DNA of 64,000 nt from Brevibacillus humidisoli. GTDB taxonomy: Bacteria > Bacillota > Bacilli > Brevibacillales > Brevibacillaceae. This document shows positions 4,910 through 58,113 of this stretch, in pieces (position 1 is the stretch's first letter; every line of letters starts with the position of its first letter). The notes beneath the pieces were generated by a model. It was given only the letters and a program-made list of their open reading frames with translations. It was not told where the DNA came from and did no database searches. The stretch covers positions 1,817,970 to 1,881,969 of the forward strand of contig NZ_CP087263.1 in assembly GCF_020923435.1 (NCBI RefSeq), read 5' to 3'. The position numbers were made by a program, and so were the translations under genes.

Positions 4910-5751
4910 ATATCGCTTTTTCTCCCTGTCCCAATGACACCTTTGTCTTCCATGCCTGGGTGCACGGGTTGGTCCCTGGAGCGCCGGCACTGGACGTCAC
5001 CTACGCAGACATCGATATCACCAACGGTATGGCGACAAGCGGCACCGGCCCGGACGTTCTCAAGATATCATATGCAGCACTGCCATGGGTTCTGTCGGAG
5101 TACGCCTTGCTCCCTTGCGGAGGTGCGCTGGGCAGAGGATGCGGCCCACTCGTTTTGACAAATGGTACGACGATCCGCGATCCGAGGGATTTGTCCGGCC
5201 GACGGGTCGCTGTTCCCAGTGAACGATCGACAGCTTATTTGCTGTTCCGGCTGTGGGCGGCTCAACACGTGCCGGGAGGCGTCGGTGAGATCGTGATCAT
5301 GCCGTTTCATCAAATCATGCCAGCCGTGCGGGATGGAGAGATCGACGCTGGGCTTGTCATCCACGAGGCGCGGTTTACCTATCCCTCTTACGGTCTTTAC
5401 ATGCTGACTGACTTGGGCAGTTGGTGGGAAACAGACACCGGACTGCCAATCCCGCTGGGAGCCATCATCGCTCGCCGTTCACTCGACCTGGATGCGATTG
5501 CCGGCTGGGTTCGTACCTCTGTCGAGTACGCATGGGCCAACCCGGATGCGTCCAGATCATACGTATTGAACCATGCCCAGGAGATGGACCCAGAAGTGGC
5601 ACAAGCGCATATCGACTTATACGTCAACTCGTTTACCGCCAACCTGGGTGAAGAAGGGTATGGAGCAGTTGCCGCGCTGCTAGGCAGAGCGGCAGCAGCA
5701 GGGCTTGTACCAAGTATAAACCTACCGGAGGCACTATACGCCAAACGATGA
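4906..5751 (+). CDS. mqnD: 1,4-dihydroxy-6-naphthoate synthase
   Basis: A 281-residue periplasmic-binding-protein-like enzyme that converts cyclic dehypoxanthine futalosine to 1,4-dihydroxy-6-naphthoate. The N-terminus IAFSPCPNDTFVFHAW is diagnostic of MqnD. Other family segments are DVLKISYAALPWVL, GCGPLVLT, GRRVAVPSERSTAYLLFRLW and the segment around DAGLVIHEARFTY, whose histidine is the proposed catalytic base. The ATG at 4906 overlaps the mqnB stop by four bases. It ends 82 bases before the nitroreductase gene with no obvious terminator between. Confidence 0.93.
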   Translation: MNIAFSPCPNDTFVFHAWVHGLVPGAPALDVTYADIDITNGMATSGTGPDVLKISYAALPWVLSEYALLPCGGALGRGCGPLVLTNGTTIRDPRDLSGRRVAVPSERSTAYLLFRLWAAQHVPGGVGEIVIMPFHQIMPAVRDGEIDAGLVIHEARFTYPSYGLYMLTDLGSWWETDTGLPIPLGAIIARRSLDLDAIAGWVRTSVEYAWANPDASRSYVLNHAQEMDPEVAQAHIDLYVNSFTANLGEEGYGAVAALLGRAAAAGLVPSINLPEALYAKR

Positions 5752-5833
5752 CCTGGATTATGCCAGATCATTTGTATCCTTTGTCCAATCAGTCGATAAT
5801 AGTCAGGGATGGATAGAGAAGAGGTGATCGAAG

Positions 5834-6571
5834 ATGAATTCCGTTATCCAATTGATGCAGCAGCACCGCTCCATCAGACGATTTAAACCGGATCAGATTC
5901 CTCCTGATCAGGTAGATTTGATCTTGCGCAGTGCACAGTCTGCTTCTACCTCCAGCAATGTACAGGCCTATAGCATCATTGGCGTTACCGATCCGGCGAT
6001 GAAAAAGGAGTTGGCAATCCTGGTCGGCAACCAACCGTACGTCGAACAGTGCCCGCTGTTTCTGGTCTGGTGTGCCGATCTGCTGAGGCTGCGTCATTCT
6101 TGCGAGAGGGAGCAGGTGGAGATGGTTCACGGCACGATGGAAAACTTCATCGTCGCTACTGTCGATGTGGCGCTGGCAGCACAAAATGCGGCCATCGCCG
6201 CAGAGTCTTTGGGCCTAGGCATCGTCTATATCGGCGGTATCCGCAACCACCCCCGCGAAGTGTCTCGCTTGCTGCAGATCCCGGAACTGGTTTATCCGGT
6301 ATTTGGGATGTGTCTCGGCTATCCCGATCAAGACCCGGATCGGAGACCGCGGCTTCCTCTCGAAGCGGTGTACCATCAAAACGTCTATTCCACTCAGCGC
6401 TTTGATCAGGCGATTGAGGAGTATAATACAGTGATGCGAGAATATTACCGCCACCGCACGGGAGGAAAGCGGGATACGACATGGTCTCAGGAGATGAGCG
6501 AAAAGTTTAGACAAGCAACACGGCAGCATATGCGCTCCTTTTTAGAGGAACAAGGATATGGGTTCGAGTGA
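5834..6571 (+). CDS. NAD(P)H-dependent flavin oxidoreductase, NfrA-type nitroreductase
   Basis: A 245-residue member of the nitroreductase family. The FMN-phosphate binding segment HRSIRRFKPDQIP sits at the N-terminus, SASTSSNVQAYSIIGV contains the second flavin-contact region, and the long middle helix with VDVALAAQNAAIAAESLGLG followed by YIGGIRNHP and GMCLGYPDQ is typical of NfrA/oxygen-insensitive NADPH nitroreductases. ATG 5834 follows AAGAGGTGATCG. Likely a cytoplasmic FMN enzyme acting on quinones, nitro compounds or flavins; the physiological substrate cannot be told from sequence. Confidence 0.88.
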   Translation: MNSVIQLMQQHRSIRRFKPDQIPPDQVDLILRSAQSASTSSNVQAYSIIGVTDPAMKKELAILVGNQPYVEQCPLFLVWCADLLRLRHSCEREQVEMVHGTMENFIVATVDVALAAQNAAIAAESLGLGIVYIGGIRNHPREVSRLLQIPELVYPVFGMCLGYPDQDPDRRPRLPLEAVYHQNVYSTQRFDQAIEEYNTVMREYYRHRTGGKRDTTWSQEMSEKFRQATRQHMRSFLEEQGYGFE

Positions 6572-6696
6572 GCCCACATCCCTGTTCTTTTTTAATGCCT
6601 ACCAATACCACGCCTGCTTTGGTCCAACCGTCATTTCAAGAAAAAAAGGGATCAGCAGCAACAAAAGGAAAAAACAATTCAGTCATCGAACAGAAC

Positions 6697-6748
6697 TTGA
6701 CACGCAACCGATTGGTTTCGTATAATGCAAAACGAAACTGATCGGTTT
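6697..6748 (+). promoter_or_regulatory. Sigma-A promoter with twin palindromic operators
   Basis: TTGACA (6697-6702), an 18-base spacer and TATAAT (6721-6726) form an almost perfect housekeeping promoter. AACCGATTGGTTTCG at 6706-6720 in the spacer and its near mirror image CGAAACTGATCGGTTT at 6733-6748 flank the -10 box; each is itself a palindrome of the AACCGATNGGTT kind used by many TetR-family repressors. The arrangement predicts tight repression of the gene at 6775, but no TetR gene is visible nearby. Confidence 0.75.
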
Positions 6749-6774
6749 CATTACAGCAAGAAGGGAATGATCCC

Positions 6775-7167
6775 ATGTCAGCAGAGTTGTTGAAAAAAAT
6801 GCATTATAAGTCAGGTCGAGCTGTTGTTCTGAATGCACCTGACGGATATCGATTAGGTATTGAAACCGATGAGGTATTCGGTGATGAAACAGACGGGAAG
6901 TATGATTTTGTCCAACTTTTTGTAAACAACGCGGCGGAAGTTGAGAAATGGCTGCCCAAGGTGATTGGGATGCTAAACGAGGATGCCGTATTCTGGATCA
7001 CATATCCAAAGCAAAGTACCAAGATCAAGACCGATATCAACCGGGACAGTCTTGCTCAGATGGTGCAGAATCAATCACCATACAGAGCCGTCAGTAATGT
7101 AGCGGTTAACGAAAAGTGGTCAGCCTTGCGCTTCCGTCCCCAGGACAAAGCGAAAGCAAGAAAGTAA
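6775..7167 (+). CDS. Conserved hypothetical protein, DUF3052-like
   Basis: A 130-residue soluble protein. It resembles the family found beside SRPBCC/ArsR genes in Bacilli, with the recognisable elements SGRAVVLNAPDGY, a central VEKWLPKVIGML...AVFWITYPKQSTKIKTDINRD and a final WSALRFRP. I do not know a biochemical function. ATG 6775 follows AAGAAGGGAATGATCCC. Its transcription starts from the promoter with twin operators just upstream, and the SRPBCC and ArsR genes follow at 28 and 1 bases, so the three genes probably form one unit. Confidence 0.65.
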   Translation: MSAELLKKMHYKSGRAVVLNAPDGYRLGIETDEVFGDETDGKYDFVQLFVNNAAEVEKWLPKVIGMLNEDAVFWITYPKQSTKIKTDINRDSLAQMVQNQSPYRAVSNVAVNEKWSALRFRPQDKAKARK

Positions 7168-7195
7168 ATCGATTACGGACTGCGAGGGATGAAAG

Positions 7196-7621
7196 ATGGA
7201 AAACAAAAACCAACATACACTGCCGGACATCCGGCAAACCACTGTATTCAATGCTCCCATCGAGAAAGTATGGGCGGCTGTTGCCACATCGGAAGGCATC
7301 GCTGCTTGGTTCATGCCGAATGACTTTCAACCTGTACTCGGCCATGAATTCCACCTTAACGCGGGTCCATATGGCAAGTCACCCTGCAAAGTGACCGAAA
7401 TCGATCCGCCCAATCGCCTCTCCTTTAACTGGGATAAAGATTGGACCATTACCTTTGAATTAAAGGATCTTGATGGAAAAACGGAATTTACCCTGATTCA
7501 CTCAGGTTGGGATCCGGACAAGGTGACGGAATTCGGGGAGACTCACCAGATTGTACGTGACCGGATGGACCAGGGCTGGGTTGGTCTTGTCAAGAAGTTG
7601 GGCGCCTACGTAGAGGCTTGA
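7196..7621 (+). CDS. SRPBCC/AHSA1-domain protein
   Basis: A 141-residue START-like helix-grip protein of the Aha1 homology (AHSA1) family. It starts RQTTVFNAPIEKVWAAVATSEGIAAWFMPNDF, the usual opening of these proteins, and contains PCKVTEIDPPNRLSFNWD and ELKDLDGKTEFTLIHSGW. These domains bind hydrophobic ligands. ATG 7196 is preceded by GCGAGGGATGAAAG. One base separates it from the ArsR regulator; this SRPBCC-ArsR pairing is very common and usually co-regulated. Confidence 0.85.
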   Translation: MENKNQHTLPDIRQTTVFNAPIEKVWAAVATSEGIAAWFMPNDFQPVLGHEFHLNAGPYGKSPCKVTEIDPPNRLSFNWDKDWTITFELKDLDGKTEFTLIHSGWDPDKVTEFGETHQIVRDRMDQGWVGLVKKLGAYVEA

Positions 7622-7622
7622 G

Positions 7623-7994
7623 ATGGCTGCTGCACTGAAACATGACGTTTTCCAAGCGATCGCCGATCCTACCCGCCGCAAGCTGCTGAGATTGCTGGGA
7701 GATCAGGAGATGCCTGTCACAGTGATCAGCAACCACTTCCCGATGAGCCGGACGGCTGTGTCCAAGCACCTCCGCATTCTGTCAGAGGCCGGGCTCGTCA
7801 AACAACGGAAAGTGGGGCGGGAGACACGGTACCGGCTTGAACCGGAACCGCTGCAGGAGTTAAAGCGATGGCTCGCTTACTATGAACGGTTTTGGGAAAA
7901 TAAAATTACTGCACTTAGGCGCTATGTGGAGACCGACGACCTGGAGGAATCATCAGGACCTTTGCAAGTAGTTGAACAGAAGCAAGAGGACTAA
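7623..7994 (+). CDS. ArsR-family transcriptional regulator
   Basis: A 123-residue winged helix-turn-helix repressor. IADPTRRKLLRLLGDQEMPVTVI, MSRTAVSKHLRILSEAGLVKQRKVGRETRYRLEPEPL is the classic ArsR DNA-binding unit with recognition helix TAVSKHLRIL and wing RKVGRETRYRL. No metal-binding cysteine cluster is present, as in the SdpR/AHSA1-linked subgroup. It follows the SRPBCC gene by one base and probably senses the same compound. The terminator at 8041 ends the unit. Confidence 0.88.
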   Translation: MAAALKHDVFQAIADPTRRKLLRLLGDQEMPVTVISNHFPMSRTAVSKHLRILSEAGLVKQRKVGRETRYRLEPEPLQELKRWLAYYERFWENKITALRRYVETDDLEESSGPLQVVEQKQED

Positions 7995-8037
7995 TATCCG
8001 GAACACAGGTATACAAGAGCAAGCAACAATTGAGTTG

Positions 8038-8089
8038 AAAAGACCAGATTATGACTTGTACATCCAAGTCATAATCTGGTCTTTTTTTG
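8038..8089 (+). terminator. Rho-independent terminator
   Basis: A perfect 18-base-pair stem (8041-8058 with 8065-8082), loop TACATC, followed by seven T. It closes the 6775-7994 unit. The stem is unusually long and AT-containing but unambiguous. Confidence 0.93.
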
Positions 8090-8192
8090 TTGGACAGCGT
8101 CTCAACACACTCGGCAAGGGAAGCTCCTTTTTCATTTGGTTGTGACTAAAAATACCTTCTCAGGTGAAAATAAGGGTACTGGTTGAGAAGGG

Positions 8193-8379
8193 TTGTTTGT
8201 ATACGGTCAAGATATTCCCTTGCAGGACGTTGTAACAGCAGAGACCTCTGTTGTCTCACGCAATGATGCGGGAGGTCACGAAAAGAAAGAGTTTATGTAC
8301 ATGCATGGGAAAGAAATCCCTCTTGAGAATATCACAGATTGACAAAGATGCGGACGCAGCTGTGAGCGAAGCGGAATAA
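8193..8379 (+). pseudogene. Small unknown reading frame, apparently frameshifted
   Basis: From a TTG at 8193 a 49-codon frame runs to a TGA at 8340-8342. It has an internal near-repeat: YGQDIPLQDVVT early and HGKEIPLENITD at the end. If one frame is skipped at about 8339, translation continues as [12 protein letters not shown] to a TAA at 8377-8379, just before the azoreductase ribosome binding site. Composition looks protein-like in both pieces. No good ribosome binding site precedes the TTG and the 5' end may be missing. I do not recognise the family. Confidence 0.35.
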
Positions 8380-8404
8380 CTACTTAGAGAGGGATGGGAT
8401 AGCA

Positions 8405-9061
8405 ATGGCGAAGGTTTTGTATATTACAGCGAATCCAAAATCGGAGGAACAGTCCTATAGTCTTTCGGTAGGAAGAGCGTTCCTCGAAGCTTACCGTGCA
8501 GAAAGCCCAAACGATCAACTGATTGAACTGGATCTGTATCAGACAGAGATTCCCGATATCGATACCGATGTATTTAGCGGCTGGGGAAAACTGCAGCAGG
8601 GTAAAGCTTTTGAGGAACTGTCAGCAGACGAAAAGTCCAAAGTAGCGAGAATTAACGAACTGACAGAGCAGTTCATCTCTGCGGACAAATATGTTTTTGT
8701 AACCCCGATGTGGAACTTCAGTGTACCACCCAGGATGAAGAAGTATATTGATACCATCTGTATTGCAGGAAAAACGTTCAAGTATACCGCTGAAGGCTCA
8801 GTTGGTCTTTTGACTGATAAAAAGGCTGTTCACATCCAAGCGCGTGGCGGTGTGTATTCGGAAGGTCCTGCGATAGAGTTCGAGTTTGGCGATCGCTACA
8901 TTCGTGCCATTTTTTCGTTTATCGGGATAACGGACGCTGAATCGATTATCGTGGAAGGTATGGCCCAAATGCCGGATAAAGCGGAAACGATTAAGCAAAA
9001 TGCCATTGCACAAGCCAAAGAGGTAGCCAAGCGTTTTGCTCGAGAGAAGGCAAAAGTGTAG
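8405..9061 (+). CDS. azoR: FMN-dependent NADH:quinone oxidoreductase/azoreductase
   Basis: A 218-residue flavodoxin-fold enzyme. The N-terminus [28 protein letters not shown] has the phosphate-binding loop of Azo[30 protein letters not shown] is the FMN-contact signature, and [10 protein letters not shown] corresponds to the substrate pocket. Such enzymes reduce quinones and azo compounds by two-electron transfer, protecting against electrophile stress. ATG 8405 follows AGAGAGGGATGGGATAGCA. Single gene; convergent with the sigma-54 regulator. Confidence 0.92.
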
Positions 9062-9146
9062 CGGTTGATCACGTCCATCGCAAGGTTGTTGCCATACATG
9101 GCGATCGCCGAATTCCACAGTCCCCTTTGGTGCTACAATCGAGTGG

Positions 9147-9169
9147 GGGCTGCCGGTAACCGACAGCCT
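9147..9169. repeat. Near-perfect inverted repeat between convergent genes
   Basis: GGCTGCCGGT and ACCGACAGCC arms abut around 9158 with one mismatch. It lies just after the stop region of the convergent azoreductase and sigma-54 regulator genes and may act as a weak bidirectional terminator, although no T-run follows. Confidence 0.4.
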
Positions 9170-9170
9170 C

Positions 9171-10577
9171 CTATAACCCGAGCTTTTGTTTTTTGCGAAC
9201 CAAAGTGGATATATCGATATTTAGCTTGTCAGCGCATTCTTTCATTGTCCTTGATTTGGCTAGTGCTTGTCTGATGTAATCCCGCTCAAACTGCAAGACT
9301 GCCTGCTTGAGGGCAAGCGGCTGATCAAACAAGTGCTGAAACTGTGAGGAAAAGGATGTATCCCTGTTTTGTCGCGCAGAGTAATGCAGGACATCACTTT
9401 GAATGCGGGAATGGTCGCTCATATGATACGCTCGTTCAACCATGTTCTTCAATTCTCGAATATTCCCAGGCCAGTTGTACGCAATCCACTTTTCCAGTTC
9501 ATGCGCACCCATACTTTTTTTCTCTCCGTATTTCTGCTCTAATTTATCGAGGAAATAAAAGATCAGCGCAGCAATATCATCCTTTCGTTGCCTCAGCGGG
9601 GGGATAGTCAAAGATAACACATTTAATCGGTAATACAAATCATGCCGAAATCTCTTCTTTTCGACACGTTGTTCCAAATCGACATTGGTCGCCGCGATAA
9701 TCCTCATATCAACCTCAATCGTCTCAACACCGCCCAACCTGCGAATCTTCTGTTCCTGCAAAACATTTAATAACTTCACCTGCAGTGCATAAGGTAGATC
9801 ACCGATTTCATCCAAAAAAATGGTCCCTTTATCGGCCAATTCAAAGAGACCCTCTTTCGGTCGGTTGGCACCGGTAAACGCTCCTTTTTCGTAGCCGAAC
9901 AGTTCAGACTCCAAGAGATGATCGGGAATAGCTCCACAGTTTATTTTGACAAAGGAACCAACTCGTCCGCTTTGCTGATGGATATAATGAGCAAGCACGT
10001 CTTTTCCTACCCCAGACTCCCCAAGGAGGAGGATAGGCGAATCGTTTTTGGCAAATCGAGCAGCTAGAGACGTAATCGTGTGCATTTCCTTGCTGCGGTA
10101 AACGAATTGCTGGGAGGACTGATAGTCTCCCTGTATCTGCAGCAAAACCTCCTGAAACTTGGAGTTCATCTGTCTTGTCTGCTCTAATTCCCGTTGAAGG
10201 CGGTTCAGTTCGGTAATGTCTCGGACATTGGAAACGACGCACACCAGTTTTTGATCCTCAAAAATCGGAGATGAAGTGAGAATCGCCTTTTTTCCGTTGT
10301 AGTAATCAATAATTGTGTCATGTGGCTTTAAGGTGCGGATCGTCACCGCTGCGCAGGAGTTTGGCACGGCATCCATCTCGACTAGCTCGAACACACTGTA
10401 TTTCCACAGCAGCTCTTCAGGAATGCCGGAGATTTCGAGAAAGGAATGGTTAAACAGCAGTGTATGCCCCTGATCATCACAAATATAGAGCCCGTCGGAG
10501 GAGATATTAAAGATGGAATGAAAGAAAGCGGCGATCTCTTCCGTTGATTTGCTTTGAAAATAATGAGAGGTTTTCAT
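9171..10577 (-). CDS. Sigma-54-dependent transcriptional activator with PAS domain
   Basis: A 468-residue enhancer-binding protein. Residues 15-120 form a PAS domain (SSDGLYICDDQGHTLLFNHS...VVSNVRDITELNRLQREL), then a short coiled linker, an AAA+ domain with Walker A GESGVGKD (186-193), the sigma-54 contact loop GAFTGA (232-237), Walker B TIFLDEIGD (252-260) and the arginine-finger region, and a C-terminal Fis-type helix-turn-helix (MKECADKLNIDISTLVRKKQKLGL). It needs RNA polymerase with sigma-54 (RpoN/SigL). The gene is divergent from a fatty-acid permease and acyl-CoA ligase whose promoter has a -24/-12 element, so it almost certainly activates those genes, sensing its signal through the PAS domain. 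Confidence 0.93.
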   Translation of the reverse strand: MKTSHYFQSKSTEEIAAFFHSIFNISSDGLYICDDQGHTLLFNHSFLEISGIPEELLWKYSVFELVEMDAVPNSCAAVTIRTLKPHDTIIDYYNGKKAILTSSPIFEDQKLVCVVSNVRDITELNRLQRELEQTRQMNSKFQEVLLQIQGDYQSSQQFVYRSKEMHTITSLAARFAKNDSPILLLGESGVGKDVLAHYIHQQSGRVGSFVKINCGAIPDHLLESELFGYEKGAFTGANRPKEGLFELADKGTIFLDEIGDLPYALQVKLLNVLQEQKIRRLGGVETIEVDMRIIAATNVDLEQRVEKKRFRHDLYYRLNVLSLTIPPLRQRKDDIAALIFYFLDKLEQKYGEKKSMGAHELEKWIAYNWPGNIRELKNMVERAYHMSDHSRIQSDVLHYSARQNRDTSFSSQFQHLFDQPLALKQAVLQFERDYIRQALAKSRTMKECADKLNIDISTLVRKKQKLGL

Positions 10578-52144: not shown

Positions 52145-53257
52145 TCAGTTACTCTTTTGTCTTGCAAAGCGTTTCCGCAAAAATGCGGCAGTCAGATTCA
52201 TCTTCACTTTATGAGAACCTTTGACGAGGATGGAGCTGTTAGCCTGGATCTTTTGCAACAGCTTGCGATGCAGCACCTCTCTCGTATTGCAGTGAATCAC
52301 TTTTGCGGCAGGAAACCCTGCCTCCACTGCGCCCTTCCCGATCAGAGCAGCATTCTTCCCAAAGGTAAACAGGTAATCGATTCCTTTTTTAGCAATGTAG
52401 CGACCAACGCCCTTATGCCCCCTCACATGGTACTTCCCCATCTCCAGCATGGCACCCAGCACGGCAATTTTTGGCCCCTTATTTTGCTGTAGTACGTCAA
52501 TGGCTGCTCTTACGGCATTGGGATTGGCGCTAAAGGTGTCATCAATGATCACGATTCCGTCTCTGCCGCGGAACGTGCTTAAGCGTCGCTGTGGCCGTGC
52601 AAATCTTCTTAATCCCCTCTGCATGGCGGAGACCGGGTAGCCCAGACAGTGGGCAATCGCAATCGCAAACAGTGCGTTATAGACATTGTGGCGGCCAGGA
52701 AGCGGAACGTGAAACGTATGAACCTGGCCCCTCAGCTTCAGATCAAAGGAGACCCCGTTACCCTCTTCACGAATATGAAACGCTTTGAACTGGGCGGGAT
52801 TGTTGATGCCGACTTTAAAGATTCTCCCTTTGAATCCCTTGGTTAACAGCATGCGCGAGTTGACATCATCTGCATTGAGGAACAACACTCCACGTGGTCT
52901 CATATGCTGGATTAACTCTGATTTGGCTCTCGCAATGCCGCGAATGCTGCCTCCAAAGTTCCCGATATGAGCCGTGCCAACGTTGGTAACCACGCCGATG
53001 TTGGGCTGAATCATCTGACAGTGTTTTTTAATCTGTCCGGCACGCAGCATCCCATACTCCAGTACAACAGCGCGATGGGAAGCGTTGATCTGTTTTTTGT
53101 AAGCGCGAGTATTGACCCAGGTGTTTTTGTTGCGGACGCTTTTAAATATTTTATTGCGTGCGCTCAGTATGGCAGCGACCATCTCTTTTGTCGTCGTTTT
53201 ACCGGCGCTCCCTGTGACCGCGATGATCGGTCTTTTATTCCCGAGTATCCCCGGCAT
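52145..53257 (-). CDS. Mur ligase-family enzyme lacking the N-terminal substrate domain (MurF-like)
   Basis: A 370-residue ATP-dependent amide ligase. It begins almost directly with the ATP-binding domain: P-loop VTGSAGKTTTKEMV at residues 14-27, then EYGMLRAGQI, VTNVGTAHIGNFGG (ligand/metal His), FLNADD, and in the C-terminal domain PLPGRHNVYNALFAIAIAHCLG, DDTFSANPNAVRAAIDVL and ILVKGSHKVKMN. MurF proper has about 450 residues with an N-terminal UDP-MurNAc domain, which is missing here, so the acceptor is likely not a UDP-MurNAc peptide. Cyanophycin/poly-gamma-glutamate ligases (CapB/PgsB) are other members of the superfamily. Divergent from a CapA-like gene, which supports a role in an amide-linked polymer. 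Confidence 0.85.
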   Translation of the reverse strand: MPGILGNKRPIIAVTGSAGKTTTKEMVAAILSARNKIFKSVRNKNTWVNTRAYKKQINASHRAVVLEYGMLRAGQIKKHCQMIQPNIGVVTNVGTAHIGNFGGSIRGIARAKSELIQHMRPRGVLFLNADDVNSRMLLTKGFKGRIFKVGINNPAQFKAFHIREEGNGVSFDLKLRGQVHTFHVPLPGRHNVYNALFAIAIAHCLGYPVSAMQRGLRRFARPQRRLSTFRGRDGIVIIDDTFSANPNAVRAAIDVLQQNKGPKIAVLGAMLEMGKYHVRGHKGVGRYIAKKGIDYLFTFGKNAALIGKGAVEAGFPAAKVIHCNTREVLHRKLLQKIQANSSILVKGSHKVKMNLTAAFLRKRFARQKSN

Positions 53258-53425: not shown

Positions 53426-54481
53426 ATGACGACACGAGTAAAAATTGCTGCAGTTGGCGACATCTTGATGTGGAGAAGACAGATTGCCTCTGCGCGGGTG
53501 GGGAATAGCAATCGATACTCGTTTGACAACATGTTTGGAGCAGTAGCTCCTTATTTGCGGTCGGCTGATCTGACAATCGGCAACCTGGAGACGACCCTCT
53601 CCGGTCGAGAGTCGCAGTACGAGCGGCGCAATCCCAAGACAGGCTGGCCGATGTTCAACTGTCCGGATGAGTTGGCCGCTGCCTTAAAAAGAGTGGGTTT
53701 CAACGTTCTGACTACGGCCAACAACCACTGTATGGACCGAGGTGTGCGAGGGTTAGTCAGGACGCTTCATGTGCTGGACCGGCACCATTTGCCCCATACA
53801 GGAACGTTTCGCAACCGGCAGGCAGCCCAGACTCCTTTGATCAAAATAGTAAAAGGAATCAAATTTGGCATCCTTGCCTATACCTACGGCACCAACCGCA
53901 TCCCGGTCCCCCAATCAAAGCCATGGCTGGTAAATCGAATTCAAAAGCCCAAGATTCTCAGGGATCTAAAAGCGCTTCGCCCAAAGGTTGACGTGATTAT
54001 CGTTGCTTTGCACTTCGGGCAGGAGTTCAAAAGGTACCCCAATGCTTCGCAACGGTCGCTGGTGAAAACCATGTTTCAGCAGGGTGCGGACATTATCCTC
54101 GGTGCCCATCCTCACGTGCTGCAGCCAATGGCCTTCCAACACACAAGCGGAACCGGTCCAGGCTTGAAGAAGAAGTTCGTCATTTACTCGCTCGGCAACT
54201 TTATTTCCGATCGCATGCTAAACAACATCCATGCGGATAGCGGCGTCATTCTCAATATCAACATCCAGAAAAACGATCAGGGCGAGGTGTCCATCACACA
54301 TGTCAATTATATTCCAACATGGGTTCATCAACGGGTTGTAAAGGGAAAACCACGCTTTCGGGTATTGCCGATCCGGCGGTTTTTACGGAACTCTAACGCG
54401 TCGCTGAGCGCTGAAGCACGGCGGACGATGCGCCGAGTCTGGAAGAATACGACTTCCCATCTTCGAGGAAAGCCGTTGTAG
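53426..54481 (+). CDS. CapA/PgsA-family protein (PGA_cap metallophosphatase fold)
   Basis: A 351-residue protein of the poly-gamma-glutamate capsule biosynthesis CapA family. Its calcineurin-like motifs are in order: AAVGDILM (11-14), GNLETTLSGRE, TTANNHCMDRG, LHFGQEF, LGAHPHVLQPM and YSLGNFISD. CapA/PgsA usually has an N-terminal membrane anchor; none is visible here, so this copy is soluble. The C-terminal 100 residues are very basic (RFRVLPIRRFLRNSNASLSAEARRTMRRVWKN), unlike normal CapA, and suggest interaction with an acidic polymer or with the spore coat. Start ATG 53426 follows GAGGGGTGG. It is divergent from the Mur ligase-like gene. Confidence 0.85.
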   Translation: MTTRVKIAAVGDILMWRRQIASARVGNSNRYSFDNMFGAVAPYLRSADLTIGNLETTLSGRESQYERRNPKTGWPMFNCPDELAAALKRVGFNVLTTANNHCMDRGVRGLVRTLHVLDRHHLPHTGTFRNRQAAQTPLIKIVKGIKFGILAYTYGTNRIPVPQSKPWLVNRIQKPKILRDLKALRPKVDVIIVALHFGQEFKRYPNASQRSLVKTMFQQGADIILGAHPHVLQPMAFQHTSGTGPGLKKKFVIYSLGNFISDRMLNNIHADSGVILNINIQKNDQGEVSITHVNYIPTWVHQRVVKGKPRFRVLPIRRFLRNSNASLSAEARRTMRRVWKNTTSHLRGKPL

Positions 54482-54563: not shown

Positions 54564-55229
54564 CTAAGGCAGATGCATGATGTTCAGATGTTGGAGATTC
54601 CAGTATGTGGTTGTACCATCACCTGCAACTACTCCGACCATATTCTGATCTGTTTTTTGCAGGAGCCCCACTTTGTTTGGATGATCGCCCAGATCAAACA
54701 CTACCATTTGTCCCTCTCGTTTTTTTACCTGTTCTTCAAATGTGCGGGGCAAAACGTAAGTGGTTGGGTGTACAGGCAGTCGATCCAGGCCCAGCGTGTA
54801 CGGTGTCTTATTGTGAGCGTAGGGGATCAACCACTTTAGATGTTGTAATGAGACAAACATTGTTTGGTATACCGGAGAGTAAAAGACAAAATAGTTGTTT
54901 AACATGCTGGTGATGTAGCCATGAATCGGTTGACCACCCGTCACGTAAATTTGAATAAATCTGCCCTTGGCATGATTGAGAATATTGCGAAGTGAGATTT
55001 TGTCGCTGTGCGTATCCAAGGGGGGCACCTGGGGGTGTTCCATCTGGACATCCGTGCGAGGACTTGGTCGAAAATGATGCAACTGGTGCACGGGAATGTA
55101 GAGGAACTGTTGGCCGTCGTAGATCACCAAAATGTCCAAGCCGTAATCCATCAAGACTCCTTCACACTGGTTTTTTCCCGGCAATGCCAAAATGATTGGC
55201 TTTCCCAAGTAATGCTTGAAATGGCTCAT
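54564..55229 (-). CDS. Three-repeat spore coat-type protein (CotB N-terminal repeat family)
   Basis: A 221-residue protein made of three related units of about 50 residues: 4-52 (HYLGKPIILALPGKNQCEGVLMDYGLDILVIY..YIPVHQLHHF), about 86-136 (HAKGRFIQIYVTGGQPIHGYITSMLNNYFVFY..FVSLQHLKWL) and about 172-219 (REGQMVVFDLGDHPNKVGLLQKTDQNMVGVV..YWNLQHLNIM). Each has the pattern of small beta-barrel repeats seen three times in CotB next door: a strand, a glycine turn, GxL, a strand, then YxxLxHL. It lacks the Ser/Lys-rich tail of CotB. Probably a coat component made in the mother cell. ATG 55229 follows AAAGGAGGACTGCT. Confidence 0.72.
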   Translation of the reverse strand: MSHFKHYLGKPIILALPGKNQCEGVLMDYGLDILVIYDGQQFLYIPVHQLHHFRPSPRTDVQMEHPQVPPLDTHSDKISLRNILNHAKGRFIQIYVTGGQPIHGYITSMLNNYFVFYSPVYQTMFVSLQHLKWLIPYAHNKTPYTLGLDRLPVHPTTYVLPRTFEEQVKKREGQMVVFDLGDHPNKVGLLQKTDQNMVGVVAGDGTTTYWNLQHLNIMHLP

Positions 55230-55406
55230 AGCAGTCCTCCTTTCAAAAGATGACCCACAGAGTCCATATTGGTCGGATTCTCGGAGTCGATTAGGTGCAC
55301 TGACACCAGCGACGAGCAGTGCACCATAAACGATCCATAACGATCAAGACATAGCGAGGGATGATACTGATGATTTCCAGTACGATCCTGCCAAACACCT
55401 CACCGC

Positions 55407-56483
55407 TTATGTGCTTCGTTGGATTGTTCTCACTACCTTCATGCCTTTAGCGTCCACTTTGATAACTTGAATCTGAGGATGAAGGAGCGAGTTCATACGA
55501 GAATTCATACGGGAATTCACACGAGAACTTACGCGAGAAGCTGCCATCCTCCTGTTTCTGATCACTGGCTTCGATTTCCGTACCACTGCTTTCGCCACTC
55601 TCGGTGACCATTTGCTGCTCTGCTTCAGGAACCGCTTTTCAGCGATTCGAACAACTTTTTTTGTACTGTACGCAGGGCGCTTGGGTACCCACACTTTTTT
55701 CTGCGGTTGAATCGCAACCGTTATTTTTTTAGAGGATCTCCTTCCTCGCAGCCGGTTCTCTTTCGCAGCCATCTCCTCGCCATCTTCTTCTCCCATCGAC
55801 TCCCCACTATTTTCTTTTTCGTCCACTGCCGCAATGTTGCGAATGTGCAGGATAGCGATCCGGAAGACTTTCTGGTTGTCCATCACTGTCACATGGTCGT
55901 CTTGTACCTCCATCAGCAACCCCTCGACCGCTTCCGATCCTCCCTGATTGATTGTTACCCAACAGTTCTGCAAGTTCTCAAGTAGTTCTACAAAAGTCTC
56001 CGCGTCAACAAACTCAGGGTCCTCGTCCATATGGAAGCTATAGGTTTTATCCTGGCTGAGACTCTTTACGTGAGCGGTCTTGTAATACACGACGCCATCC
56101 TCTCCGGTGTGCAGAGCGAAGAAATCTTCTCCAATTTTCAGAATACGACCGGATTGAGATTTCGGTCCTCCCTGATCAACTCGGACAGGTTGATGCTTTA
56201 GAATCACTAGTACCTCATTGAAACTAGGTGAATCGGGTAATCCATCGTCGTAACCTTCTCTCCTATCAGTAGGAGGATACGTCTCATTGAAATCTTCACA
56301 TACGAACTTGATGTGTTCCATGTTGTAATACATAAGGCCGTCTTGATCGGCGTCAACGACGATGCAACTACCTTTTACTGCGATTAGTCTGACATGTTTC
56401 GGCTCCAGGCCCGACTCGTATACGCGCAAAACCTTCCCTACCATAGACTCCAGATACGTAATCAATGTGCAATCTTCTTCCAT
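55407..56483 (-). CDS. cotB: Spore coat protein CotB
   Basis: A 358-residue protein. Residues 1-215 hold three repeats matching B. subtilis CotB: SMVGKVLRVYESGLEPKHVRLIAVKGSCIVV...YYNMEHIKFV, KHQPVRVDQGGPKSQSGRILKIGEDFFAL..EDGVVYYKTAHVKSL and NCWVTINQGGSEAVEGLLMEVQDDHVTVM..RIAILHIRNI. GGPxSxxGRL and EDGVVYY..HVKS(L/I) are shared almost word for word. An acidic linker (215-240) is followed by a basic Arg/Lys/Ser/Val tail of about 110 residues. In B. subtilis the serine-rich tail of CotB is phosphorylated by the kinase CotH. The gene at 56833, divergent from this one, encodes another type of kinase. Confidence 0.85.
   Translation of the reverse strand: MEEDCTLITYLESMVGKVLRVYESGLEPKHVRLIAVKGSCIVVDADQDGLMYYNMEHIKFVCEDFNETYPPTDRREGYDDGLPDSPSFNEVLVILKHQPVRVDQGGPKSQSGRILKIGEDFFALHTGEDGVVYYKTAHVKSLSQDKTYSFHMDEDPEFVDAETFVELLENLQNCWVTINQGGSEAVEGLLMEVQDDHVTVMDNQKVFRIAILHIRNIAAVDEKENSGESMGEEDGEEMAAKENRLRGRRSSKKITVAIQPQKKVWVPKRPAYSTKKVVRIAEKRFLKQSSKWSPRVAKAVVRKSKPVIRNRRMAASRVSSRVNSRMNSRMNSLLHPQIQVIKVDAKGMKVVRTIQRST
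55487..55534. repeat. 12-base tandem repeats in the cotB tail
   Basis: Four degenerate copies of a 12-base unit (consensus GAGAATTCATAC) encode the repeated SRVN/SRMN segments of the CotB tail on the minus strand. In-frame repeat number could vary between strains. Confidence 0.8.
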
Positions 56484-56832
56484 TTGCTCTTTCCCCTCTC
56501 TCCAAATGTCCTGTAGGAGCAGCTGTACTGCATGTATATGTGCCGATCAGCATCGCGCCATAAACGTTTGCACCAATTCTAAAAGAAATAGACTATTACT
56601 CGTAAGCTGGTGTCCTGTCTAGTCATCCGTTTACGAGATTGCAGCCCGGATATAGAGACAATGCACAAAAATTCCACGATAAGACTGGGTGATTCGCTCT
56701 AGCCGACAGCACACAAATGAATAGCATACTAGGGAATAGCAGTCCCGGAGCATCATTTGTCGGGGGATGGCAAACGTAGGTATGTTCCAGGTCCGACCTT
56801 AATCCGGAAGGTAAGGAGGAATCGAATACAGA
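56484..56832. other. Divergent intergenic region cotB / HipA-like kinase
   Basis: 349 bases that should contain both sporulation promoters. On the plus strand CATACTAG (56725-56732) resembles the -10 box of mother-cell sigma factors E/K, but I see no convincing -35. On the minus strand a CATATACAT lies near 56530. Shine-Dalgarno AAGGAGG (56813-56819) serves the kinase. Nothing else is clear. Confidence 0.4.
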
Positions 56833-57780
56833 ATGACTACCAAAAGCTGGAGACCGGTACGCAAGCTAGTTAGAAAACTGGGGCCTGTCTGGGTCGTACG
56901 CCGAACGCATCACAATCATAAACAGACTGGGTACTTCAAGTTTCCCACCCGCCGAAACAGAAAATACGTAGGAAACTTGATTGCCAATGAACTGATCTCC
57001 TATCGACTGGCCAAACTGATTGATCTGAACGTGGCAAATGTTGAGCTGGCAAAGATTCGTGGTCGCAGAGGAGTTGTTTCCATTGCCAGGCCTGCACGCC
57101 ATTTGTATAGCTGGAATCGACTGCATCGAATGAAAGGATCGGCGATCCATCATCTCGACCATCCTGAGCAGCTTTTACGTACGTTTGTGTTTGACGTCTG
57201 GATCTGTAATGTGGACCGACATGGCGGCAATCTGATTACATTCCCGCGTGGCAAGCGGTACGGGTTTTACCTGATCGATCACGGGTTGGCACTCGACGGT
57301 GCGTTAAAATGGCGGAAGCGACCCTGGAACTCGTCATACTGGACTAATGTATGGAGGTACAATCGTCACTACGTGCGAGGTCTCTTGTCCTATGTCCGCA
57401 ATTACCGGCAGCTGGTACCGTACATCAAGCAAATCCAGAGGATCCCCTCGCGTGACATTGAAGCCGCAATTGATGCGGTACCCGCGTCGATTTTGGACTA
57501 CGAGAACAGACAGAAGATCAAAAAAATGCTTTTGTACAGACAGCGAAATCTGGACTGGATCATCAAAAAATGGGCAAAGGAAGGAAACAAGTCTGTCCGG
57601 GATGTGCAAAAGCATGTGTCGGAGTCAAGCGAAACCGAAACGGTACAAAAGCAACAGCAAAGAGTCAAGCAGAATAAGCGCCACGGTAAGAAACATCAAG
57701 TCTTTTCCAAACCGCCCCGGCATAATAAACAAGATCATTCCACTTTTGGTGCGGATTATTTGTACTACTACTATTCTTAA
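56833..57780 (+). CDS. HipA-like kinase in the spore coat cluster
   Basis: A 315-residue protein with a HipA/PI3-4-kinase-like catalytic core. GYFKFPTRRNRKYVGNLIANELISYRLAKLIDLNVANVELA resembles the ATP-lysine region and the following helix; the catalytic loop is FDVWICNVDRHGGNLI (Asp128, Asn133) and the metal-binding DFG equivalent is YLIDHGLAL (Asp149). All expected catalytic residues are present. The C-terminal 70 residues are low-complexity and very rich in K, Q, S and E, ending in repeated tyrosines (YLYYYYS), as in coat proteins. ATG 56833 follows AAGGAGGAATCGAATACAG. No HipB-like antitoxin is adjacent, so it is not a toxin-antitoxin pair. Confidence 0.75.
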   Translation: MTTKSWRPVRKLVRKLGPVWVVRRTHHNHKQTGYFKFPTRRNRKYVGNLIANELISYRLAKLIDLNVANVELAKIRGRRGVVSIARPARHLYSWNRLHRMKGSAIHHLDHPEQLLRTFVFDVWICNVDRHGGNLITFPRGKRYGFYLIDHGLALDGALKWRKRPWNSSYWTNVWRYNRHYVRGLLSYVRNYRQLVPYIKQIQRIPSRDIEAAIDAVPASILDYENRQKIKKMLLYRQRNLDWIIKKWAKEGNKSVRDVQKHVSESSETETVQKQQQRVKQNKRHGKKHQVFSKPPRHNKQDHSTFGADYLYYYYS

Positions 57781-57909: not shown

Positions 57910-58113
57910 TTACTGGCGGGCCAGTTGTTGTTCGGCGAAGCTCACCAGACGCTTGGTAATCTCTCCACCCACCGAACCGTTCTGACGCGAAGTCGTGTCA
58001 GCGCCAAGCTGAACACCGAACTCTTGGGCGATCTCATACTTCAGTTGGTCAAGAGCTTGGTTAGCCTGAGGAACTAACAGTTGGTTGTTGTTGCCGCCTC
58101 CGTTGTTAGCCAT
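57910..58113 (-). CDS. sspA: Alpha/beta-type small acid-soluble spore protein
   Basis: A 67-residue protein that coats and protects DNA in the dormant spore. [55 protein letters not shown] contains both conserved blocks of the family; the GPR protease cleavage site is at EFGV. ATG 58113 follows a GGAGGAATCGTA sequence. Normally transcribed by sigma-G in the forespore. The symbol refers to the family; several paralogues are usual. Confidence 0.96.

Follow-up and report, generated by a model that had tools for sequence, protein, structure and literature searches.

Related kinase systems

In B. subtilis, cotB, cotH and cotG form a cluster in which the tail of CotB is the target of CotH (PMC7821199). 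The locus described here resembles that system in that a CotB whose basic tail contains Ser neighbours an atypical kinase, but CotH belongs to another kinase family, CotG was not recognised in the window (the whole 64,000-nucleotide stretch of Brevibacillus humidisoli DNA analysed here), and the adjacency of kinase and CotB is not conserved. CotS/CotI and CotSA of B. subtilis offer a further parallel, as there too, in spore formers, a kinase has a GT4-type glycosyltransferase as its partner, and CotS-like genes often lie in the same operon as the HipA-like genes examined here. However, the CotS-like proteins are kinases of another family, with the APH fold, and the HipA-like gene comes in addition to them.

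HipA-type kinases have been studied as persistence toxins. HipA of HipBA modules shares its kinase fold and catalytic residues with the window kinase, but the latter is shorter, has no HipB partner and is not found in a toxin-antitoxin arrangement. The HipA_2 (PF20613)/CtkA group is alike in catalytic pattern and Pfam score, yet identity to CtkA and the other nearest solved structures is about 16%, and we found no description of such kinases in operons of the spore coat or of glycans, where the window family occurs. Our literature search found no paper joining HipA to the spore coat, and a phylogeny of HipA makes no mention of spores (PMC8262856).

Organization of the locus

The interval 54564-57780 comprises three genes in the list of open reading frames: two coat-type genes on the minus strand and one divergent kinase gene on the plus strand. 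The first-pass annotation had described this interval as a kinase and cotB; both are present, but a second coat-type gene at 54564-55229 (minus strand) went unmentioned. Its product is a tail-less CotB paralogue of 221 amino acids (61% mean column identity in the alignment). The CotB-family gene itself (P0002) occupies 55407-56483 on the minus strand and the HipA-like (HipA_2) kinase gene, encoding 315 amino acids, occupies 56833-57780 on the plus strand, with the two divergent starts 349 bp apart. The locus is bounded by genes for a CapA-like PGA_cap protein (53426-54481, plus strand; assigned by Pfam and syntenic in loci L022 and L127) and an alpha/beta-type small acid-soluble spore protein (SASP; 57910-58113, minus strand; Pfam SASP, 87.1 bits, and synteny). 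The SASP gene flanks the locus in the syntenic relatives examined.

The kinase has an intact HipA-like core

The window kinase, the only one of the HipA-like family in its genome, scored 30.3 bits against Pfam HipA_2, above the gathering cut-off of 27 and hence within the family. Its catalytic set (K36, E53, D128/R129/N133 and D149/H150) is intact. When aligned with 42 relatives, E53, D128, R129, N133 and D149 were invariant, and K36 and H150 were conserved in at least 90%, in agreement with the complete HipA-like core read from the sequence at first pass. The AlphaFold model (pLDDT 86.9, pTM 0.80) was confident save for the last 29 residues, and its top fold matches in the PDB were CtkA, which ranked first, HipA, HipT and PI4K. 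The kinase is very probably active. No match to CotH (PF08757) was obtained in the Pfam search at E values up to 1, nor did any NCBIfam model match, TIGR02906 (CotS family) included. A control search of B. subtilis with HipA_2 likewise gave no match.

The kinase had also been credited with a coat-like K/Q/S tail. The tail is indeed disordered and rich in K, Q and S, but its last residues, DYLYYYYS, form a tyrosine run. The kinase copy at L044 ends in DDYYYYY and that at L042 has several YY pairs; most relatives have no such tail. Tyrosine-rich stretches are frequent in coat proteins, and we counted the resemblance of these three tails to coat proteins in favour of a role at the spore surface.

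CotB and its paralogue

CotB is predicted to consist of three small beta-barrel repeats (residues 1-221) and a disordered, K/R/S-rich tail (residues 222-358). A profile of the family found matches directly beside CotH in four Bacilli genomes (G174, G088, G296 and G314) and within about 4 kb of CotH in four others (G265, G048, G247 and G094). As this placement fits the B. subtilis cotB-cotH-cotG cluster, the earlier recognition of a clear cotB divergent from the kinase was right, and sequence comparison confirmed the product of 55407-56483 as a genuine CotB-family protein. The pairing of cotB with the tail-less paralogue is kept in L023, L128-L131, L133 and L134. A fold search with the CotB model returned tandem KOW/Tudor-like barrels at low TM, and we therefore describe the fold only as a general small barrel.

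The tail contains 26% K+R and 12% Ser. Its description as basic with Ser residues was accurate, but the regular SRMN-type repeat amounts to just a 12-bp tandem unit present three times, at 55492-55527 (not assigned to a strand; Tandem Repeats Finder). Similar basic tails occur on the CotB proteins of relatives that have no adjacent HipA kinase.

Linkage of the kinase to cotB and to CotH

The kinase and cotB were directly adjacent in only two of about 47 kinase loci, the window and L044. The latter belongs to G010, the sole other genome seen with this adjacency, where the order is convergent rather than divergent. Two such arrangements exceed chance for unlinked genes but are still not a conserved module of the CotH-CotB-CotG kind, as elsewhere the genes are separated or one of them is missing. 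In the same genus, G001 has the order CapA-kinase-SASP with no cotB between, and its genome yielded neither a P0002 match nor a CotB-profile match; G002 has CapA-cotB-SASP, with a CotB of 232 amino acids that has no tail, and the kinase is absent. Most kinase-bearing Brevibacillus genomes contain no CotB match. B. laterosporus-type genomes hold kinase, cotB and CotH, none of them adjacent: the cotB pair is at the SASP locus, the kinase has a rhamnose-type sugar cluster as its neighbour, and the coat-type CotH is elsewhere. Kinase, CotB and CotH are found together, unlinked, in G005, G013 and G015. In G003, some 8 kb separate the cotB pair from a HipA copy that is linked to GT4.

The only CotH-family protein of the window genome sits between PelG and VTC genes (L001, 37-3556), and by this context looks like an exopolysaccharide-type lipoprotein rather than a coat CotH. 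Coat-type CotH was not found in the window genome, G010, G003 or G007. Among genomes with cotB, the kinase was present in 11 of 22 without a coat-type CotH versus 4 of 17 with one, a difference that is not significant (Fisher p = 0.11) in a comparison confounded by phylogeny. Overall, the kinase is only weakly tied to cotB. The first-pass annotation had proposed that a HipA-type enzyme takes the place of CotH as the CotB kinase, to be checked by co-occurrence of kinase and cotB where cotH is absent and by the cotB neighbourhood in relatives. Neither check bore the proposal out: each of the two closest genomes has only one of cotB and kinase, adjacency was confined to two loci, and all three genes, coat-type CotH included, are present in several genomes.

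The family often lies in operons with GT4, CotS-like and YheC/D-type genes

One scan of 84,980 genomes yielded 78 kinase loci, and the strong loci were all from Bacillota. The prevailing setting of the family was not the one beside cotB: in 21 of 46 related Bacillota loci, a GT4 glycosyltransferase gene ended within about 110 bp of the start of the kinase match on the same strand. A YheC/D-type ATP-grasp gene was nearby in nine of the 46 and a CotS-like gene in seven; a representative of the latter scored 158.5 bits against TIGR02906, just below the cut-off of 172.7. The CotS-like, GT4 and YheC/D labels were assigned by homology, and a role in the spore is presumed for these species. More distant HipA-like kinases were found in CotS-like-GT-HipA (L038, L039, L165 and L167), GT-HipA (L176) and YheC/D-HipA (L178 and L179) arrangements. 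Within L179, positions 5733-10057 hold two tandem pairs of a YheC/D ATP-grasp gene and a HipA-like kinase gene.

On the kinase tree, only four changes separated GT4-linked from unlinked states. The GT4-linked loci L049 and L052 fall within the 13-row clade of the window kinase with a support of 100, and the window lineage most likely arose from a GT4-linked ancestor. The window kinase is most likely a GT4-free descendant that came to adjoin the cotB pair. A search of the window genome for a detached GT4 partner returned merely generic GT4 matches (best, 6e-11).

Many Brevibacillus members of the family occur in contexts without coat genes, such as heme-biosynthesis genes (L078, L079, L081 and L085) or 2-oxo acid dehydrogenase genes (L080). 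Kinase copies split into two frames or broken by stops were seen in some relatives (L036, L062 and L083/L031), a sign that some lineages have lost the gene and can do without it. A thiazole-peptide (TIGR03693-type) maturation cluster adjoins the HipA-like kinase in L043, L048 and L056 (Aneurinibacillus, Cohnella).

Association with sporulation

In a survey of 400 Bacilli genomes, all 41 with strong kinase hits carried SpoIVA, compared to 269 of the 400 overall (Fisher p = 3e-8, phylogeny ignored); tested by genus, the link gave a p value of only 0.03. Weaker, more distant hits included four SpoIVA-negative genomes. Neither sigma-E-type (p = 0.15) nor sigma-K-type promoters (p = 0.05) were significantly enriched, relative to control genes, in front of the kinase and the operon heads. 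An association of this HipA-class family with spore-surface genes is well supported by gene content and context. The earlier suggestion that a HipA-type kinase serves the spore is supported, mostly by evidence beyond that available at first pass: the conserved operons with GT4, CotS-like and YheC/D-like genes, and the restriction of the close family to SpoIVA-bearing genomes. Its specific form, a replacement of CotH at CotB, is not supported.

Assessment of possible functions

With a modest degree of preference, we favour a kinase of a HipA-like family that acts in spore-surface assembly, on coat protein or on glycan. We counted the conserved catalytic residues, the HipA/PI4K fold, the GT4 linkage and the SpoIVA restriction for this reading, and the coat-gene-free Brevibacillus contexts, the broken copies and the genus-level p value against it. 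The family, which in this survey occurred only in genomes that have spore genes, would have had its ancestral setting in an operon with GT4, to which a YheC/D-type ATP-grasp protein or an APH-fold, CotS-like kinase is often added. During assembly of the spore surface the kinase would most likely work in the mother cell, where it may transfer phosphate from ATP to a coat protein, to a glycan of the coat or to a precursor of that glycan. The window sub-lineage would have lost its GT4 partner and come to adjoin the cotB pair, with the CotB tail as one possible substrate.

That the enzyme is instead a dedicated CotB kinase, which took over the job of CotH and phosphorylates Ser in the basic tail of its neighbour, seems unlikely. 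The neighbouring genes here and in G010, the missing coat-type CotH in these two genomes, G003 and G007, the tail-less CotB of the kinase-free G002, and the use of the CotB tail by CotH in B. subtilis (PMC7821199) all speak for it, but no CotB was found in G001, which retains the kinase, or in most kinase-bearing Brevibacillus genomes. Nor is it helped by basic CotB tails that have no HipA kinase next to them, by the unlinked coexistence of all three genes, or by the p value of 0.11 for CotH absence. An ordinary small-molecule or housekeeping kinase with no special spore role, its coat neighbours reflecting loose clustering, is less probable again. Many Brevibacillus paralogues in unrelated contexts are what such an enzyme would predict, and not all members of the PI4K/HipA fold class are protein kinases; however, a closely linked GT4, together with CotS-like and YheC/D-like genes, recurs across several families, and no SpoIVA-negative genome gave a strong hit. 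We consider a HipBA-type toxin or anti-phage kinase very improbable despite the HipA-class fold and a match of the PADLOC candidate-defence models PDC-M03A at 4e-14, as no HipB-like gene adjoins, the neighbours are CotB-type, SASP and CapA rather than defence genes, the protein has 315 amino acids versus 410-450 for HipA, the close family is found only in spore formers, and the syntenic position is common to G001. The PDC-M03A match probably reflects the common fold, and the PDC-M03A family may itself contain spore kinases.

A broader form of the spore-surface reading is doubtful at present: a previously undescribed, spore-specific branch of HipA-like phosphorylation in Bacilli that would modify coat proteins or glycans together with GT4, CotS-like and YheC/D enzymes, and that the window lineage would have redirected to CotB. 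If true, it would add a third class of atypical kinase to spore-surface assembly, beside CotH and the CotS group, and would provide an entry point to the biochemically little-characterised CotS-GT4-YheC/D loci.

Flanking genes

Upstream of the interval, a Mur ligase gene whose product has no MurF N-terminal domain (52145-53257, minus strand) is divergent from the CapA-like PGA_cap gene. This pair is kept at the same place within the genus (L022 and L127), adjoining spore genes.
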